A DNA stretch of 64,000 nt from Imbricaverruca yamaguchii (Eukaryota; Arthropoda; Thecostraca; Neoverrucidae). Each line of letters opens with the position of its first letter. The stretch's first letter is position 1. The notes beneath the pieces were generated by a model. The model ran no database searches, had not been told where the DNA came from, and saw nothing but the letters and a program-made list of their open reading frames with translations. The stretch is taken from positions 27,501 through 91,500 of the forward strand of contig JAOTOL010001011.1 in the NCBI GenBank assembly GCA_034440575.1, read 5' to 3'. Shown here piece after piece: positions 31,769-58,070 of this stretch. The translations under genes were made by a program, and so were the position numbers.

Positions 31769-32117
31769 AGCGCGTTGGTATGACAATGTGAATTGTACGT
31801 GACTTCGCATCCATTCACTCACTTCCCGAAACGCAAACGAAGTCGCAACCACTGTCGCCTGCGCGGGTCTGGAGCATTGACCCATTTGATAATGAGCTGT
31901 GACGTTCGCAGTTCACCTCGTATCTTTCGGCCGCCTCGATGCAGACAAGTTGAGCGCGACACCGGCCGACTATGATCGGTGCGCCGTCTTCGTCAGCGTC
32001 ACCGCCGCCGGTTAATGGTGCGCCTCCATCAGCCCGCAGCTGCGTCTAACGTAGCCGAGCCACTCAGCAGAGTGCCGCCGTCGCCGCCAGAGGCGCCACC
32101 TGTGGCGGCGGCCGCGG

Positions 32118-32670
32118 CTGAGAAGCCGGGCTCTGCACGATATTCCAGCTGAGAAACCTGGCTTTGCACGATACCCCGGCTGAGAAGCCGGGCTCTGCAC
32201 GATACTCCGGCTGAGAAGCCGGGCTCTGCACGATATTCCAGCTGAGAAGCCGGGCCCTGCACGATACCCCGGCTGAGAAGCCGGGCCCTGCACGATACCC
32301 CGGCTGAGAAGCCTGGCTCTGCACGATACCCCGGCTGAGAAGCCGGGCTCTGCACGATACTCCGGCTGAGAAGCCGGGCTCTGCACGATACTCCGGCTGA
32401 GAAGCCTGGCTCTGCACGATATTCCAGCTGAGAAGCCGGGCTCTGCATGATACCCCAGCTGAGAAGCCTGGCTTTGCACGATACCCCGGCTGAGAAGCCT
32501 GGCTCTGCACGATACCCCGGCTGAGAAGCCTGGCTCTGCACGATACCCCGGCTGAAAAGCCTGGCTCTGCACGATATTCCAGCTGAGAAGCCTGGCTTTG
32601 CACGATACCCCGGCTGAGAAGCCGGGCTCTGCACGATACCCCGGCTGAGAAGCCGGGCTCTGCGCGATAC
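32118..32670. repeat. 31-bp minisatellite, about 18 copies
   Basis: Units of GCACGATACCCCGGCTGAGA followed by AGCCGGGCTCT. GCCGGGCTC/GCCTGGCTC and CCCCGG/ATTCCAG variants alternate, so subtypes are interleaved. CGGCTGAGAAGCCG inside each unit is a small palindrome. Confidence 0.95.
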
Positions 32671-32879
32671 CCCGTCGCGGCGGCTCATCCCAGCCGCTAT
32701 AAAGGGCTGAACCGCCAGTGTCGCACCGCGCCGCGGTCTGGGAAACAGTGTCGTAATCACGTCTCAGACAGTATGTGGCAAGTGGGGCATCCGGTAATTG
32801 GTGACAGGAAGGGTCAATGCTAACCAGTGGCATTGGCACCTGTCGCGGACCTGACCTGGTTATGAAAATGCTGGTGTTG

Positions 32880-42948: not shown

Positions 42949-43165
42949 AGAAGCCAACGCGACGCTGATCGACACCGCCTGCCGAACGGACCGCGACAGA
43001 CGCGACGCACCCACTGAGCATCGAAATGTTCCTGCCGCAGCAGACAGCGCCGGCACGTTTCGGGGGGGGCGATTGCCTCAGCACAGGTGATGGCGGCTGG
43101 CGGCCCAGCCCAGACGCAGAGCTGGCGGCTGACACAGGCGGGGCGCAGCGGTTCTCCGTCGACCC

Positions 43166-43490
43166 CAGTGAGAAGTCGGTGTGTGGTCGCCAGCTCATCA
43201 CCTGACCCCAGTGAGAAGTCGGTGTGTAGTCGCCAGCTCATCACCTGACCCCAGTGAGAAGTGGTGTGGGGCGCCAGCTCATCACCTGACCCCAGTGAGA
43301 AGTCGGTGTGTAGTCGCCAGCTCATCACCTGACCCCAGTGAGAAGTCGGTGTGTGGTCGCCAGCTCATCACCTGACCCCAGTGAGAAGTCGGTGTGTAGT
43401 CGCCAGCTCATCACCTGACCCCAGTGAGAAGTCGGTGTGTGGTCGCCAGCTCATCACCTGACCCCAGTGAGAAGTCGGTGTGTAGTCGCC
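43166..43490. repeat. 43-bp minisatellite with donor-like sites on both strands
   Basis: About 8 units of GACCCCAGTGAGAAGTCGGT followed by GTGTGGTCGCCAGCTCATCACCT split across the unit end. One unit (around 43262) is shortened. The plus strand holds CCCA then GTGAGAAG; the minus strand holds GGTCAG then GTGATGAG. Confidence 0.93.
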
Positions 43491-46400
43491 AGCAGAAGCG
43501 CCCCGCCCAGACAAGATCGTCCGCTGGCCGCGAAGGACGACGACCCGGTCTGCATGGCAGCTGGCTGCTCGCCTGGGGGCACGGGCCGGTCGTCAGTCAG
43601 GCTTTCGGCAATGACGCAAGGCTGGCGTAGACTCCGAATACGGGGGTCTGTCGAAAACAAGGCGGGGCTGATTGGATCCGAGTTATGAGTCGTGCCAGCA
43701 TCGATCGTCCCCAGGCTGATCTGAGCCAGACTGACGTCAGACTACCAAAACTGGGAAGGTCTGCCGAAGAGATGCGCCGATACGTGGCATGCCAGTCACC
43801 ATTGTCACCAAACATTTGTTGGAGAATAATTACTGGGTGTGAAAAAGTGGTCAAAATACCGCCTGCACTGAGGATGAAGTACACATATATCCGGGAACAA
43901 TGCGACAGCTGGAAGAGACAAGGCAAGAATGGAGATGGTGGTGGTTATTGGTTTTACGATGCGTCTACTGTTTTGGATCAAACAGCGTCGTCAAGTTCTC
44001 ATGCTGGTCGGTTGCAGGCGAAGAGTAGGGTCAGGTGGGACACGAACCCGCAGCCAGGTCAGGAGTAGGGAACAGTTAGGGCACCTTATCTTCATATTTC
44101 TCGCTCCCAAAATGGCAGAACAACTGGGTGACAACTGGGTGGGAGGGACAGAGGGCTATTTCGCACATTATCACCTGGTTAACATGACAAGTTTATTCCC
44201 GCTTGGCACTGCACTGCACCGGCGAAGTCCACACTCCCGGACTATCCCTTCTCACTCTCAGATCGCAACGGTCCAAATCGTGGAACTTCAAGTTGGGAAA
44301 AACACTTTAATCTGAATCTGAGTCAAGGATTGCTACTGAGTTCCCTGCCTGATTCGAGGAAGCGGATCCACACCACATCGTGGGGGGATAGACACCATAG
44401 ACTTCATGCCAGACATCCGTTCGCAGATGTTCCTCTAGATATACACTCACATGCAGCACATTCCCTTAGGAGGGATATTTGCGAGTAGATACAATGGACC
44501 AGAAGAAATGCGAAAAGGCCATTGCGATGAAGCATAGGAGACCGCTATTATCAACTGTCCAGGAATCAGCAAGAAGCCGTAGTACGCAAGCCGTAGTACG
44601 TAGTACACATTTTCATTTGAGATATTGCGGATACATGCACTGCGTGTCTTCTGCGCTTGTTGAAGCGTTACATAAAACAGCAGGGTATGACGATGAGTTG
44701 CTGGAAGGCAGTGCATGTATGGGTTAATAATGTGCATAGCTTCACGTGGAACACATTCTGGCACGGTGTTTGTTTAGCGGTATATATTGTGGTTAGTGAA
44801 ACGTGCCGAGTGTGCTGGGAATGGCTGGATATAATTGTAGCATGTATGATCCGGCACTGAGCAGCTGTCTCCAACCGAATACACGACTACATATCAGGAT
44901 AAAAATATACCCATTGTCTTGAACGTTCCTCTTACACTTCGCCGACGTAGCGGCAGAAGAGCGGAGGGCACCTGAATTTATGTGCCTTGCAATGTATGTC
45001 AACTCAACACGATCAGCTGAGTGAGGACCAGACTACGTGTGGCACCCAGTCTGCCCTGGCCGCCCGGGTAGGCCGATAAATGTATTTGACTGTCAATGAA
45101 CCATGTTTACGGCTTACCGGTATCATTCACTTTAATTCGCCGTTCAGTTTTCGCAGCACATAAGCTTGTCGTATGTCGGCCCATTCTGTCTCTCGGGAGA
45201 GTTGGGAGGGGTTGCTCTTTCCACCCACGCAGAGACTCAACCCATCCCTCACACTCAGAGAAGTAACCCATTCCACTTATCCAGAGGCACAACCCACTCG
45301 GTCATGGGGGAAGCATCCTAAGTATTGACGAGGAATATTGACGCCTCGATTGCAGTGGGAAACAACCGAGGGTGTTGTCAGATGATTTATTTTTCTTCTT
45401 TTTATGTCCGCGGCCAAGTGCTAGCCAGCCTGTTGGGAAAGGCTACGGTAACCGGAACACCGTTTTCCGGGCAAATCAGCTACGTTAAGGACTCAAGCAA
45501 AGGAAATAATGTTTGCTAATGAATGTATTTCTGGAGGCCCTTTGTAGTAAACTGGATCGTGAACGTCCTGCACAACACAGGCAGACAGTTTTGGCTGCTC
45601 AGAAGCGGCCAGCTCATCCGAGTGGGCAGGAGGACCCCCAGCCAGTCAGCCCTGTAGCCACACACTGTACCAAAATGCGTGCGGACGAAACCCAGACAGC
45701 CTAAATGCACTATTAATTCCGTTGTTTTTATATGAATAATTGTATATATATATATAATTCATATAAGAGGAGTTCCGAAAGATATGGAAAATCGTTTCCC
45801 AGAACTGTCATCAGGGTCAGTAGTATTTGATACTTGGCTGCGGAGCGCTGCATTGAAATTATATTGGGCGCGCTAGAACTCCCTCATGCAGACGACATGC
45901 TTGGTTTCATGCCGGGCAAGGTCAGAGCACATGTTTAATGGGGAATATCTTATGTGTTTTATACTCCTACTGCTTCTGCAGATGGGTCCTGCAACAACAG
46001 TGGAGATTCCAAGGGACATCACAGAGGAGAATAGGGGGAGACTCTGGTGGGCATGAATGAAGACCTGTTCTTGCCAACTTGTATGTTGTTTCATTACCGG
46101 GCACCATGGTGTGCCCTGAGACTTGGAGGATCTGTGCACTACCTTCCGGAACAATCAGGAATAGGTCTCGAACATTCCCATTCATTGAATGAGGTGTGCT
46201 GTGACATTTCGTTATCGCCTGAGGGGCTGACTGCGAATCGGATCAAAGAGCAGCTCGAGGTATCTTATTGTGTTCTATATATTGTAAACGTTGATACGTT
46301 GCACGTAATTCCGAAAAGAAAACTGCCATTATATCAGAGAGCCATTATATCGGTGCTGCGCGACATCTGGTCCAACAAATGCTGCACCAGTTTTACCTAT

Positions 46401-47879
46401 CTGCACACATTCCATTTGCCAAGAAAAAGACGAACGAAGTGTGTGCGCAATTATTTTCGAAATAGATATCGTGCTGCAGCAGTGATGAGCTGAAATATCG
46501 GAATCAGAAATAGGTAATGACAATTGGCGGGGGACTAAACCAAAATGGTGCGTATCTGAGAAGAGGAGGGATAATAAATTTTGTAGTTCTGAGTACGTCA
46601 TGCAGATTTCGCAGCGGATCTCAGATTGTACGGATTGGCCGTCATCGGCCTTGGTGTGGTCGTGAGGACGTAAATACACTAGAGTATGACGTGTCTTGGC
46701 TATGACCGAACTCTCATTGCATATCTTACAAGGTTATATGGTCGGCGATGCTGTAGGCTATGTGTATACGCTTCAATCTAAAGATTAACTGCAGGAATGG
46801 AACAAAATGCGCCATGGATTAAACGGAGTGTTCCTTTTTTAATAAACTCCAGGCGGTGTACAAGTGTAGGGGATAAATCAACGACATACATGTTGCATGC
46901 ACCGATGGGCCTAATGAGTGATATATACCTATACATTTATCAGTTTTGCAATTTACAACCTCCCTCCATTCTCTCCCAGATATTTGCCGCATGATATTTA
47001 ATAGTATTAAGCATTTCTTACGGACATGCATGAGCAGTGAAACGTAATCCATGGTCAATTATAACGCATATACCCTTGATTCGGCACAGACTAGTGTATG
47101 CATTCCGTCGACGCACAGCGGGATAGCTGGGGATGTTCGAAGACGTCGGCGGACAAATATCGCTGTGGCACATTTGAGCACAGAGAGGGAGGGACCATGT
47201 CTTGCACCACGTGATTGTGATGGCCCACCTGTGGGCCATGTTGTACCGTGGGAATTGACATATGCACACCACTGTCCGTGTTAGATATGATATCACCGAG
47301 TCGATCGTGGTAAGAGAGAGGTTCAGGTGCGCACTGTCTAAAAAAGTTAAAAATAATGTGTGCCAGAAAATAGTCTGAACACTCGATTGGACTTCATGAG
47401 GTCAAGTTGCTGTGGAGAGAAGCAAACTGAATGCGCCATGAAGCGGAGTGGAGTGGAGTGGAGTGGCGTGGTATGTAATAGTGAGGTGAGGTGAATGTTT
47501 GTTATAATTATATAGTGCAGCGAACTAGGGACAAGTTAATCATCGCGAGATTTATCATATTTTAAGAGGTGTATTGCAAGAGAGCAAACATAAGAATTTG
47601 TTATGCAAATGGTGAAAGCGAGTCATGTACGTTGAAGCAATCTACGACTCTAAAGAACACGCATAATTACGAATAATATAGACACATAATAAAAAACGTT
47701 ATCACATGATCACAAGCACCCAATATCTGCAGGTAAGTACGGCCACCTGTAGGTGAATACAATTGCTCTACGATGTCGGTACCTTTCAGACGACGCAGTT
47801 ACAGGATACGCAGTAGGTGTGCACGCGGTTGACCCCGAACCTGTATAACTATCACATTCTGTGGCCTCATCAACATAGT
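43491..47879. other. No gene recognised apart from one SINE
   Basis: Short ORFs only. A short TA run with an imperfect palindrome lies at 45735-45768. Confidence 0.55.
43935..44060 (-). mobile_element. SINE (family C), truncated or diverged copy
   Basis: The minus strand matches 26870-26986: GGGTTCGTGTCCCACCTGAC, CTACTCTTCGCCTGC, then CATCGTAAAACCAATAACCA and a CCACCAT tail. The head beyond the B box is diverged or absent. No TSD found. Confidence 0.7.
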
Positions 47880-48640
47880 TTTCACCACGACTTGTTCATT
47901 GAGGCTGTTCGGCTCGACGCTGTCGCACGCAATTTACAGCATCGATCGAAGCATGGCGACGCCATTGGTTTCCGCGGATACCTCTAAGGCCTTTGACAGG
48001 GTCGAGCACAGCCGCCTCCCGTGGGAGCTGGGGGGGGGTGCAGTGTCGACGCAGGATGGCTTGGCGCCCGGCTGAGAGGTAGGATGCAATCAGTGAGATA
48101 AAACAACGCTCTGAACGCGACTCGCGGAGTGATCTGGGGATCGATTGTTAAACACACCCCCGTTGGTGTCGTGCACCAACTGTCTCGCGCGACACATATC
48201 GCACGGAAAAACGTCATTGTTTTCCGAGACGATGCATGACTAAGATGCCGAATATCCCGTACATATTCACCGGGCTATGAAGTCCAAGAGAGGGAAAGTT
48301 GGCAAGATATAGCAATTATTTGGTTGACGAGAAGCGGTCTAAAAATAACTATCTTAAACACCGAAATGACTTTACCTGAATCAGGAAGGCTTCGCAGCAA
48401 TACTCAGCCCTCCGTGGACTTTGGAAGCAGCCGATTTCACTCCACTGTGGCTGTCGAGTTTTAGGTGTCCTCGTTGACCCTCGACTAAATCTGGCACGCC
48501 ACGTATCGGTTATTGTTCGTCGATGCTCCGCAATCGTGGTGGGGATTGCCATATTAAGACATCGCACACCTAAAGACGCTCGGAATAAGACTATCGTAGG
48601 ATTAGTTTTCCTGTAAGCGCGCTACTGCACCAAAATATTG
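47880..48640 (+). mobile_element. Decayed LINE reverse-transcriptase relic
   Basis: Motif A is readable at about 47955-48020 (PLVSADTSKAFDRVEHSRLP). Downstream in shifted frames are RGVIWGSI (the G-P-QGS-like segment), VIVFRDDA where the catalytic F/Y-A-DD has Arg for Ala, then GLKITILNTEMTL, VLGVLVDPRLNLARHV and a LRHRTPKDARNKTIVG segment. This order fits the thumb and palm of a LINE RT, but stops and frameshifts abound. Family (I or Jockey group) is uncertain; it may be related to the RNase-H LINE at 15.3 kb. Confidence 0.75.
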
Positions 48641-51789: not shown

Positions 51790-53457
51790 GGCTCACCGTC
51801 CAGTTAAGCTGGACAGTCTACTCGCCTTTCAGTATAGCTGGATAGTCTACTCGCATTTCAGTATAGCTGGACAGCTGATCTACCGTCCAGTGTAGCTGGA
51901 CAGGTGACCTACCGTCCAGTGTAGCTGGATAGGTGACCTACCGTCCGGTGTACCTGGACAGGTGACCTACCGTTCAGTGTAGCTGGACAGCTGATCTACC
52001 GTCCGGTGTAGCTGGACAGGTGACCTACCGTCCAGTGTAGCTGGCCAGATAACCTACCGTTCAGTGTAGCTGGACAGGTGACCTACCGTCCAGTGTAGCT
52101 GGACAGGTGACCTAGCGTCCAGTGTAGCTGGACAGGTGACCTACCGTCCAGTGTAGCTGGACAGGGGTGACCCACCGTCCAGTGTAGCTGGACAGGGGTG
52201 ACCTACCGTCCAGTGTAGCTGGACAGGTGACCTACCGTCCGGGGTAGCTGGACAGGTGACCTACCGTCCGGTGTAGCTGGACAGGGGTGACCCACCGTCC
52301 GGTGTAGCTGGACAGGGGTGACCTACCGTCCGGTGTAGCTGGATAGGTGACTTACCGTCCGGTATAGCTGGACAGGTGACCTACCGTCCAGTATAGCTGG
52401 AAAGGTGACCTATCGTCCGGTGTAGCTGGACAGGGGTGACCCACCGTCCAGTGTAGCTGGACAGGGGTGACCTACCGTCCGGTGTAGCTGGATAGGTGAC
52501 TTACCGTCCGGTATAGCTGGACAGGTGACCTACCGTCCAGTATAGCTGGACAGGTGACCTACCGTCCAGTGTAGCTGGACAGGTGACCTACCGTCCGGGG
52601 TAGCTGGACAGGTCACCTACCGTCCGGTGTAGCTGGACAGGTGACCTGACGTCCGGTGTAGCTGGACAGGCGACCTGACGACCGGTGTAGCTGGACAGGG
52701 GTGACCCACCGTCCAGTGTAGCTGGACAGGTGACCTACCGTCCGGTGTAGCTGGACAGGTGACCTACCGTCCGGTGTAGCTGGACAGGTGACCTACCGTC
52801 CGGTGTAGCTGGATAGGTGACTTACCGTCCGGTATAGCTGGACAGGTGACCTACCGTCCAGTATAGCTGGACAGGTTACCTACCGTCCGGTGTAGCTGGA
52901 CAGGTGACCTACCGTCCGGTGTAGCTGGACATGTGACCTACCGTCCGGTGTAGCTGGACAGGTGACCTGACGTCCAGTGCAGCTGGACAGGTGACCTACT
53001 GTCCGGTGTAGCTGGACAGGTGACCTACCGTCCAGTGTAGCTGGACAGGTGACCCACCGTCCAGTGTAGCTGGACAGGTGACCTACCGTCCGGTGTAGCT
53101 GGATAGGTGACTTACCGTCCGGTATAGCTGGACAGGTGACCTACCGTCCAGTATAGCTGGACAGGTTACCTACCGTCCGGTGTAGCTGGACAGGTGACCT
53201 ACCGTCCGGTGTAGCTGGACATGTGACCTACCGTCGGTGTAGCTGGACGGGACCTGACGTCCGTGCAGCTGGACAGGTGACCTACTGTCGGTGTAGCTGG
53301 ACAGGTGACCTACCGTCAGTGTAGCTGGACAGGTGACCCACCGTCCAGTGTAGCTGGACAGTTGATCTACCGTCCAGTGTAGCTGGACAGGTGACCTACC
53401 GTCCGGTGTAGCTGGACAGGTGACCTACCGTCCAGTGTAGCTGGACAGGTGACCTAC
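51790..53457 (-). repeat. 29-bp minisatellite made of copies of the dpr exon's 5' splice site
   Basis: About 55-60 tandem copies of a 29-bp unit. Read on the minus strand, each holds (C/T)GGACG followed by GTAGGTCACC, then TGTCCAGCTACA. The first copy is the real exon end plus donor at 53458/53457. Units vary in length (CAGGGGTGA versus CAGGTGA) and at a C/T before GGACG. Copies near 51.8-51.9 kb are the most diverged. Larger blocks recur: the variant with GGATAGGTGACTTACCG appears near 52339, 52489, 52809 and 53101. The array lies in the intron of the dpr gene. Confidence 0.95.
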
Positions 53458-53626
53458 CGTCCAGGATGTGTACGATGACCGAGGCCGGCTGGGCATTGCT
53501 GGGACTGCAGATATATTCGCCCGAGTCCCGGCCGCTGGCTCGCTGGATCAGAAGGTGGGAGGTGGTGCGGTGGGCCTTGGCCGTGATGACGCTGATGCCT
53601 CCTCGTGCCGAGTTGAAGCTTACCAC
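53458..53626 (-). CDS. dpr: dpr-family protein, exon encoding second half of second Ig domain
   Basis: The exon is 169 nt: 56 codons plus one base. It begins VVSFNSARGGISVIT, has LLIQRAS, then the F-strand signature DSGEYIC, then SPSNAQPASVIVHILD. The ARGGIS, LLIQ, DSG-Y-C, PSNA-PASV-VH order is the dpr second-Ig pattern. The Cys pairs with the Cys of the preceding exon. The acceptor is CCCCTCTCAG before GTGGTAAGC (phase 0), matching the phase-0 end of the upstream exon. The donor is TGGACG then GTAGGTCACC (phase 1), so the two exons form a phase 1-1 Ig cassette. No stop or frameshift is present. Immediately beyond the donor lies a tandem array of roughly 1.67 kb whose unit repeats this same splice site. 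The following exon (linker and C-terminus) was not found. Confidence 0.9.
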
Positions 53627-53971
53627 CTGAGAGGGGTACCATACTACACTAGCGAATGTCTAGAAAACAGAGACATAAAACCAACTTAGAAGCGGTAATG
53701 CGATACACTGGTGGAAGGAACGTAAACAAGCTAGATTGGCCTTACTTTGAATGGCAGCACAAGGGTTTATGGCAATCTGCTGGTCTACTTGGGAAAAGCT
53801 AAACAGATATCACTCACATGCAAAGTAATGAATGCGTGCCTTTTCGTGAACACAGTAGCGGTTAGAAGAAAACAACATGAGCAGAAGAAAAATTGCGCAC
53901 GAGACTTGCACCCTAAGGATGTATGTTCACTCAATAACACTACATGATGTAAAAAACAATAGCTGTTTTCA

Positions 53972-54899: not shown

Positions 54900-55257
54900 T
54901 TGTAATGCCACTATTACTCCCAATGCAGTGAGTTACATACATTTATCAATGACAGGCATCGGCACAAGTTGAGACAATACATTGTTGTCCATAAATCGCA
55001 GACGACCACTCCTCTCTGCAGGACACATACTGACATGAGCCGTCCACGACAGATAGCGGCCTGATGGCCGTTGTCTGTCTTGGCGTCGAGTACTCGGCCG
55101 GATGCTGACAGTCGGCTATACGTTCGACCGCCTTTGAAAACCGGCTTGTCGAAGACCGTCCTGCCGTTGCGAATGTGCACCCCGAAGTTATCGACAATCC
55201 CACTCGGTAAAGACGCTGCAGCACCTCAGCCCCGGCGTCATGACACGCTGGCCCGTC

Positions 55258-55407
55258 CTACACCCACCTAGTCAGTCCTACACCCATCTGGTCCGTCCTA
55301 CACCCACCTGGTCCGTCCGATACTCACCTGGTGCGTCCGACACCCACCTGGTGCGTCCTACACCCACCTGGTCCGTCCGACACCCACCTGGTCCGTAAGA
55401 CACCCAC
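55258..55407 (-). repeat. 20-bp minisatellite made of copies of the dpr exon's 5' splice site
   Basis: Tandem 20-bp units; on the minus strand each reads approximately ACCAG followed by GTGGGTGT and then (C/A)GGACGG or a close variant. Together with the genuine exon/intron boundary at 55408/55407 there are 8 evenly spaced donor-like copies. One copy (boundary 55328) reads CAG then GTGAGTATC, which is closer to the donor consensus than the exon-proximal site. The array is intronic. Confidence 0.92.
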
Positions 55408-55535
55408 CTGGTTCCGGTGGAGCCACGTCACTGCCGTGGGCGGCTCGGGACTATAGCTGACCGTGCAGGTCAGATTGAGGTCGCTGCCGCGCTGTATGAA
55501 GACGCTGCTGCCACCCACAATGCTGGCCACCGGCA
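55408..55535 (-). CDS. dpr: dpr-family protein, exon encoding first half of second Ig domain
   Basis: This exon encodes about 43 residues. It starts VPVASIVGGSSV, continues through a B-strand Cys (LNLTC) and the dpr-typical SPEPP motif, then a C-strand Trp (VTW), and ends LHRNQ. Dpr proteins are neuronal cell-surface proteins with two Ig domains that bind DIP partners in synaptic matching; this role is inferred from the family. The acceptor is read as GACAG before TGCCGGTGG (phase 1). The donor is AACCAG then GTGGGTG, leaving a complete codon (phase 0). An alternative acceptor after TGTACAG would start the exon at 55557 and add RRVRLPT. I prefer 55535 because dpr proteins usually have V-P at this junction. 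The next exon starts in matching phase. The downstream intron begins with tandem copies of this donor. Which dpr paralogue this is cannot be told. Confidence 0.85.
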
Positions 55536-56055: not shown

Positions 56056-57559
56056 GGGCACTGATGTACACAAGGGTGCTGGTGCACACTGTGTTCGTGC
56101 ACATTGGGCGATGGAAGTTCACGCCTCCGCCATGCTAACGACGAAAACACATTTTAGTATTGGTAGTTACAGTAGTCTCCTTACTCTTCTAGCACTATGA
56201 TGAAAAATTGAAGTCTGCAGGTACTGAGGGAGGGCATTACATGCTGGTACGGGCATGGACGACATCGTTGTCCAGGCGGTCATGACAACTATGTTAATAA
56301 ATCTTTCGTGATATGAAAAACAGCAATTTGTGCCCAATAAATCAACGGCTTATGGGAACATGATAATGCCAACGAAAAACAGATATACTCTATCCTAATA
56401 TATTAAGATGGAATGATATAGTTCCTGCTATTGCGCACAATTGGTGTTGGAGGTTCAAACTGTTATACTCTAAACAAGGTGTGGTCAACCGGCTCTCCGA
56501 GGTAGTCGCGCTTCTCTTGGCCCAGTTCAGGTCTATGACATGAGCCGGCGTCAAAGTTGTCGCAGACGTCACCTAATATGTGTGTAATTGTATTTTATGA
56601 AATTGTGTTATATTCTATCGACTAGTATTTTATTAAAATGCTGATGGTCTGATTTAAAATACAGCATGATTGTTCTAGAAAAGGCAATCGTACTGGATAA
56701 AAATGTACAGTCAATTGTTTTTTGATACCGATAGTGACGTTTGTCTGAGTAGGGGCTGTGGCTGGTGCTGAATTGGCTCGGGTCGGACCGGGTCGGGTCG
56801 AACCAATTGGCTTGGAGTCGGGTCGAGTGGGACCTGGCCGAGTCTATGCACTCGTCCCGATCCCACTCGACCCGACCGATCGTTGATCTGATGGCTGTCA
56901 CATCGAACAACCATCAGTTCAAACCCGCATCTCGTCGCTGGGGCGGAATTTAGAGGCACCGTCACAATGCTGGACCATAGTCAACATGTGGCAGCAGAAG
57001 GTCGGGCAGTGGACTGGATAGCGCCGGGGTTCGATTGTTCGGCCGGAGCACAGTACCATCGACCGAGTTATCTGCAGATGCCCGCGCCGCTTTGGAAATG
57101 TGTCGATCTATCTGTGTGCAACATCTAGCTCATATGCTGACATCTCGCGTAATGCCTAGCAGTGAATGGTGGCGGGTGGATGGAACGATATCCCGACATC
57201 TCGCGTATTCCCTAGCAGTACGGCAGGTGGCGGGTAGGTGGGACGGCAACCTGCGCCCACAACAAAACAGCAGGCGTAATCACCAAACATCCAGCCCATT
57301 CATTCCACCACGTAGCCTCAATCAGTCTGGTAGCGAGTGTTCAGAACACAATTAGTAGTCTGGGTCACTCTGGATGTATCCTAGGTCAACGATTTTTTTC
57401 GACAAAAATTGACAGATCTGAGCGGTTGAAGAAGTGACAGAAGAAGCGCACTGTTCGGGCACAACAACCGGAAGTGATTGATAGTCGCATCGTTGTTCCA
57501 AAGCGGCCCGATCTGCATGTAAGCTGACGTTGAGGTAACATACGTGACTGCATTCCAGC
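56056..57559. other. No gene recognised
   Basis: Upstream of the dpr Ig2 exons in transcript direction. A GGTTCGATTGTTC at 57030 resembles a pol III B box but no complete SINE can be traced. Confidence 0.5.
56819..56874. other. 14-bp inverted repeat
   Basis: CGGGTCGAGTGGGA (56819-56832) and TCCCACTCGACCCG (56861-56874) with a 28-nt loop, inside a GGGTCGG-rich stretch. Confidence 0.75.
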
Positions 57560-58070
57560 TCCCGGTGGCCAGGTGTCCGACGGGGCACTGTTATGGAGCC
57601 GCGACATTTGCAGCTGTAGTCCAGCTCCCGGTGCCCAGGTGTCCGACGGGGCACTGTTATGGAGCCGCGACATTTGCAGCTGTAGTCCAGCTCCCGGTGC
57701 CCATTGTCCGACGGGGCACTGTTATGGAGCCGCGACATTTGCAGCTGTAGTCCAGTCGGTGCCCGTGTCCGACGGGGCACTGTTATGGAGCCGCGACATT
57801 TGCAGCTGTAGTCCAGCTCCCGGTGCCCATGTGTCCGACGGGGCACTGTTATGGAGCCGCGACATTTGCAGCTGTAGTCCAGCTCCCGGTGCCCATGTGT
57901 CCGACGGGGCACTGTTATGGAGCAGCGACATTTGCAGCTGTAGTCCAGCTCCCGGTGCCCATGTGTCCGACGGGGCACTGTTATGGAGCCGCGACATTTG
58001 CAGCTGTAGTCCAGCTCCCGGTGGCCAGGTGTCCGACGGGGCACCGTTATGGAGCCGCGACATTTGCGTG
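57560..58070. repeat. 66-bp minisatellite, 8 copies
   Basis: Units run GTGTCCGACGGGGCACTGTT, ATGGAGCCGCGACATTTGCA, GCTGTAGTCCAGCTCCCGGT, GCCCAG. Three units are shortened by a few bases (57700-57780). Since 66 is divisible by 3, two plus and two minus frames stay open. A minus-strand ORF of 248 codons (58098-57352) runs through it and 200 bp beyond, but nothing in it is recognisable and I do not call it a gene. Confidence 0.93.

Follow-up and report, generated by a model that had tools for sequence, protein, structure and literature searches.

The window considered here is a stretch of 64,000 nucleotides, and the locus within it raises a simple question: why is the 5′ splice site of a coding exon followed by dozens of tandem copies of itself, and do these copies take any part in splicing? 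We addressed this by establishing the exon by homology, dissecting the array unit by unit, and asking how often other exon boundaries in the genome are arranged in the same way.

The dpr-family gene and its boundary arrays

The exon at the edge of the array, Ig2b (53458..53626, reverse strand), belongs to a nerve-adhesion gene of the dpr family. Its translation, VVSFNSARGG...VHILDG, forms the second half of the protein's second Ig domain. The exon ends in the phase 1 donor CTGGACG|GTAGGT, with the edge at 53458. Generic dpr Ig queries were used in locating exons of the gene. Joined to Ig2a, Ig2b matches Drosophila Dpr4 (PDB 6eg0; E value 3.7e-23) as well as Pfam Ig families, and the four best matches of the joined product of four exons (202 residues) are the barnacle proteins P0001–P0004 from Pollicipes pollicipes and Amphibalanus amphitrite (68–75% identity). 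By this similarity, the genome most likely comes from a barnacle with no protein of its own among these matches. The predicted spliced product reads ...VHILDG^EQPAAMQTGSSSFAASGRSCLGG, and Pollicipes protein P0001 likewise has HILDG-EQPAAMQTGSSSFAASGRSCLGG. This continuation past VHILDG, with the same sequence present behind an acceptor at 43572-43454, makes 53458 a well supported exon end on homology grounds. The last coding exon (43454..43572, reverse strand; GEQPAAMQTGSSSFAASGRSCLGG...HRLLTGVR-stop) lies behind the acceptor CCCCCAG|GC and matches the C-terminus of P0001. The original prediction had placed a dpr-type exon here, with its own 5′ splice site inside the repeat unit, and had named as its refutation a finding that 53458 is no exon end. 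Homology and unit dissection agree with its placement, and the homologous proteins and the next exon support the exon end. At the other side of Ig2b, a 33-nt extension (53627..53659, reverse strand; TFASVVWYPSQ) lies behind a TTTTCTAG acceptor. Amphibalanus P0003 has TLASSVWSPSQ where the extension falls, and Pollicipes P0001 does not contain it; the extension is likely to represent an alternative or the main exon start, using this upstream acceptor.

Array A (51797..53464, reverse strand) begins within Ig2b and consists of about 57 units of 29 bp, each made of 7 exonic (CTGGACG) and 22 intronic bases. Tandem Repeats Finder (TRF) reports 51864-53462 with a period of 29, 54.9 copies and 90% matches, and a diverged stretch at 51807-51874 in addition; dissection from the exon edge, unit by unit, gives 54 good and 3 decayed units, with remnants to about 51755. 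The array of some 55–60 copies originally proposed is therefore real, although its unit has 7 bases in common with the exon and not 6. The exact donor ACG|GTAGGT is retained in 34 of the 54 good units, GT in 48 and GT[AG][AG]GT in 46, so it was too strong to say that all intact units present one and the same donor. A 23-bp unit pattern searched with up to 2 mismatches against the 767-Mb genome (1430 contigs) gave at least 45 matches. All 45 matches listed fall inside array A, and a dispersed repeat family was rejected on this basis. As the listed matches are confined to the array, and as sister donors show the same architecture built from other sequences, the overlap of array and exon is far beyond chance.

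Exon Ig2a (PVASIVGGSSVFIQRGSDLNLTC...WLHRNQ; 55408..55535, reverse strand, acceptor end placed by eye) has the phase 0 donor GGAACCAG|GTGGGT, on which lies array B (55248..55412, reverse strand; 20-bp unit, 8.2 copies in TRF). Its exonic share is 5 contiguous bases, 7 by a lenient count, or 9 by eye if one indel is allowed. Exon Ig1a lies outside the window, on contig C778 at about 160.2 kb. It ends ...CGCAACATCGCAAACTATACG|GTACGT and is followed by array C (28 bp × 11), whose unit takes in 4 intronic bases and about 24 exonic bases by eye; the latter code for VRNIANYT, a stretch that is similar in P0001 and P0003. The donor of exon Ig1b carries no array. Of the four internal donors located in this gene, three thus bear arrays, and the units of A, B and C differ in sequence. 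Since counterparts of the coding portions occur in other barnacle proteins, we take the exon to be the older sequence and the array to be derived from it. Array D (43161..43493, reverse strand; 43-bp unit, 7.8 copies in TRF) overlaps the 3′ end of the coding region, stop codon included; the seed therefore need not be a splice site. The further array-bearing exon ends of this gene within the window were absent from the original prediction.

Unit A is predicted to fold into a stable hairpin (z of −2.8 for DNA and −2.65 for a 116-nt RNA stretch), which could alter access to the donor. The other units (B, C and D) show no folding advantage over their shuffles, and the hairpin of unit A is not a general feature.

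Divergence and donor potential of the copies

The number of mismatches per unit shows no trend with distance from the exon across units 1–54 (Spearman −0.02, P=0.88), and units 55–57 have a mean of 8 mismatches. The earlier observation that the most diverged copies lie farthest out holds for units 55–57 but not for units 1–54. Growth from the exon side, which had been proposed from it, was rejected: 54 units carry no gradient, and a run of five units is duplicated inside the array. This run of unit types, 7-1-8-9-10, occurs in units 9–13 and again in units 19–23, ten units apart, and the pair 9-10 recurs twice later. At least one block of units has therefore been duplicated within array A, a result that rests on this single run of five unit types. 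There is no strong higher-order period, with identical pairs at 12% or less at any lag from 1 to 39.

On one alternative reading, the copies would serve to buffer the loss of the donor, to tune splicing or to protect the long transcript, as spare donors or as decoys for U1. The retention of GT in 48 of 54 units and of GTRRGT in 46 would suit such a device, as would the arrays on three of four internal donors of the gene. The donor hexamer, however, is mismatched in 22 of 324 cells (6.8%), compared with 40 of 1188 elsewhere in the unit when the polymorphic column 24 is set aside and 70 of 1242 when that column is counted (3.4–5.6%). The hexamer is at least as diverged as its surroundings, the copies show no sign of being retained as donors, and selection on them was rejected. 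Donor copies 2 and 3 would shift the frame and later copies would lead into a stop in the extension, so that they could not buffer the protein; a single weak GT at +33 is in frame, and it is not the main donor of any unit. The conserved product results from the first donor copy alone. Arrays are also found at acceptors (see below) and at one coding-sequence end, which likewise counts against such a device. We regard a spare-donor or decoy function, one of the roles first put forward for the array, as quite improbable. Because the hexamer is not better conserved and the later donors shift the frame or meet a stop, the anatomy of array A favours neutral tandem duplication over any such device.

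A related possibility is that the downstream units act as regulated alternative donors, giving isoforms or unproductive mRNAs. Most copies in array A score level with the first donor (3.8 for ACG|GTAGGT), on a donor weight matrix that was also used in the survey of exon boundaries below. According to PMC4526556, two downstream repeat units of the human IFI6 minisatellite serve as donors. For array A, the frameshifts at copies 2 and 3 and the stops behind later copies speak against useful variable exon ends, which had also been suggested, but they leave room for unproductive splicing. This argument does not extend to arrays B and C, where 2 of 13 and 7 of 23 GT sites, first donor included, are in frame and free of stops. 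Overall, regulated variable ends appear unlikely.

Frequency of arrays at exon boundaries

Searching the genome at the protein level yielded 32 dpr-like exon matches, of which 30 came with loci and two had none. Three of the 30 loci (L035, L036 and L038) were omitted because the exon extends beyond the match. Donors were fixed by homology at 25 paralog loci and, with the 4 internal donors of this gene, make up a set of 29. For each, a segment of 39 bp across the junction was matched against the next 220 bp, and a local score of at least 15 crossing the junction was taken as a hit; in 3000 trials with shuffled junctions, 12 was the 99th percentile and 17 the maximum. Eight of the 29 dpr donors pass. 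Leaving aside the Ig2b donor itself and a hit at locus L030 gives 6/28, or 4/25 without this gene. L030 passed the automatic test and was dropped (7/28 to 6/28): a tRNA-like SINE, called by eye from its tRNA-like box and AAAC tail, sits at the donor, and its target-site duplication holds the second donor copy.

As a second sample, 60 of 136 kinase-domain exon matches were taken by score order. The rule, set before any of their sequences had been inspected, required the match to lie within the domain at both ends and the open frame to be at most 250. For the last 20 donors, about 160 bases after the match were available, which can only lower the count. Eleven of the 60 pass the automatic test and two further examples were recognised by eye. 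Pooled over both samples, 17 of 88 homology-defined donors lie in tandem copies whose first unit begins within the exon (15/85 without this gene). The pooled figure does not count L025, L083 and L112, where boundary copies were seen by eye and fail the automatic rule. At L062 and L111, the donor picked by the automatic step is a downstream copy. The paralogs L013 and L017 resemble each other and may trace back to one event. In the 13 kinase examples, the exonic bases in common with the next copy, counted without gaps, number 15–58 in eight and 0–8 in five. In the dpr paralog L034/L025 (contig C1297), a downstream array of 86-bp units holds 10 repeats of about 81 exonic bases together with the donor, near half an exon.

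These counts have to be read against a genome that is rich in minisatellites, in which some arrays must touch exon ends by chance. TRF arrays make up 16–18% of contig C778. A copy downstream is found at 16.8% of 5607 random positions and at 13–20% across the control sets, so part of the association between donors and arrays reflects this background. At the dpr sites, plain copy coverage is 31% at the donor, against 17–34% at points from +20 to +480 bp, which by itself would fit chance abutment. A fairer comparison for an exon end is a position within about 70 bp of the upstream edge of an array. By this edge rule, the rate is 3.7% of the 5607 random positions, 5.0% of 220 donor-like motifs, and 4.5% and 4.9% of 1345 and 1132 positions in nearby introns, compared with 17/88 donors. 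The rule was applied to the dpr donors together with the controls and to the kinase hits only after their selection. Ten of the 11 kinase hits conform to it, six with a full seed and four with a shorter seed, for which only 48–82 bases before the donor were at hand; L111 was left without a call. Against a rate of 4.5%, binomial P values are 3.6e-7 for 17/88 and 5.6e-6 for 15/85, and they are rough since control positions are not independent. Moreover, the unit takes in exonic sequence in register. Chance abutment is, in our judgement, very improbable as an explanation of these arrays.

Arrays also lie at 3′ splice sites. Among acceptors, picked by pyrimidine tract and open frame, 5 of 39 from kinase exons and 1 of 13 from dpr exons pass (6/52; P=0.029 against 4.5%); the choice of acceptor at L085 is doubtful, and at L067 the automatic acceptor is a copy and not the exon's own. 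Both 5′ and 3′ exon boundaries are thus affected in this genome (17/88 and 6/52). The two rates do not differ significantly (P=0.35), nor do they in kinases with both ends available (donors 6/40, acceptors 5/39; P=1.0). Upstream of the L067 exon on the gene strand, and at L062, kinase exon-start arrays include the 3′ splice site, and L062 carries arrays at both ends of one exon.

Relation to described arrays and proposed origin

Arrays at exon boundaries have precedents. Mirages in amphioxus were reportedly described by Canestro in 2002, and the human IFI6 gene (6-16, G1P3) is said, in work of Turri in 1995, to contain a minisatellite with multiple splice donor sites. According to PMC3087553, mirages are minisatellite-like tandem duplications of exon–intron boundaries in the amphioxus Adh3 and globin genes, at both types of boundary, with units of 10–72 bp in Adh3 and 150–160 bp in the globins; RT-PCR suggests regular splicing, and alleles differ in length. 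PGBD5 and troponin C are added in PMC3902484. By its sequence, array A fits the anatomical definition of a mirage: its unit crosses the exon–intron boundary (7+22 bases; about 24+4 in the Ig1a array), and its unit length of 29 bp falls in the reported range, with other boundary arrays mostly at 19–111 bp. The duplicated block of units, seen in one assembly, is consistent with the allelic length instability of mirages. Array A therefore belongs to a described but little-known class, and the earlier remark that no such class was known has to be given up in the light of the amphioxus and IFI6 cases.

The amphioxus examples (Adh3, troponin C, the globins BflGb6 and BflGb9, and PGBD5) share with the barnacle arrays a minisatellite-like unit across a 5′ or 3′ boundary, splice signals in many copies and an intact ancestral exon. 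They differ in extent, with 3–6 copies in BflGb6 as against about 57 in array A, and in frequency, since the barnacle has several arrays in one gene and arrays at about one-fifth of the donors sampled. The amphioxus transcripts were examined by RT-PCR, whereas the barnacle arrays are known from genomic sequence. IFI6 is alike in having several donors supplied by tandem units at the end of an exon, but its downstream units are reported as used, whereas those of array A are predicted to cause frameshifts or stops. What is new here is an arthropod case and its frequency, the latter from one genome and set against a rarity elsewhere that is a matter of general knowledge. Intron gain by tandem genomic duplication is a known model. 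PMC3087553 cites it as the Rogers model; there too, the duplicated segment contains a splice signal, but the new intron arises inside an exon, whereas here the intron already exists and its edge alone is multiplied. Among the titles and abstract openings listed for the barnacle and crustacean literature, which included a Daphnia tandem-repeat survey, none of the titles concerned an exon-edge array.

We consider it probable that array A is a mirage that arose by duplication of the boundary and expanded in the intron, in which the first donor makes the conserved product and the remaining copies are neutral passengers. A short segment across the boundary (7 bases of exon followed by 22 of intron) would have been duplicated in tandem. 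Slippage or unequal exchange would then have enlarged the array inside the intron, with a block of units duplicated as well; among the origins first listed for the array, slippage from the exon edge is the best fit. Selection on the protein would maintain the copy in the exon together with its donor, and the other copies that carry GT would be passengers. We infer both the mechanism of duplication and the normal use of the first donor; protein homology agrees with the latter.

The same process may account for part of the recurrence at other exons. Tandem duplications of 20–90 bp would arise often in this genome, and some would expand. One that spans a donor places every added copy in the intron and would be harmless for as long as splicing keeps to the first. 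With one copy frozen by selection, two copies should also stay recognisable up to about twice as long. Such slower decay could cover up to about two-fold of the four- to five-fold excess at exon edges, and a bias of birth towards exon edges, or retention, may supply the rest. Neutral birth with slower decay thus explains the excess only in part. A broader proposal, that barnacle genomes preferentially amplify exon edges, 5′ splice sites above all, and that about one-fifth of introns open with an array of donor copies, is tentative and we hold it to be doubtful. If such amplification were tied to transcription or splicing (for example, by R-loop or nick-driven duplication at exon ends), it would be a lineage-wide mode of mutation, and the spliceosome would routinely pick the first of many equal donors.

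The frequency in the barnacle genome is the part most worth pursuing. If, as the sampling suggests, about one-fifth of donors are followed by their own tandem copies, the genome offers a natural experiment on the choice of a 5′ splice site among dozens of equals, and on how often boundary duplications supply new exon or intron material. It also warns of possible errors at exon ends when genes are predicted or reads are mapped in barnacles.

The window contains further repetitive elements. ORF fragments at 47833-48616 on the forward strand resemble, by eye, the reverse transcriptase of a non-LTR retrotransposon (DTSKAFDRVEHSRL), and many more minisatellites are present, such as those at 32115-32674 (31 bp × 18) and 57554-58067 (66 bp × 8).
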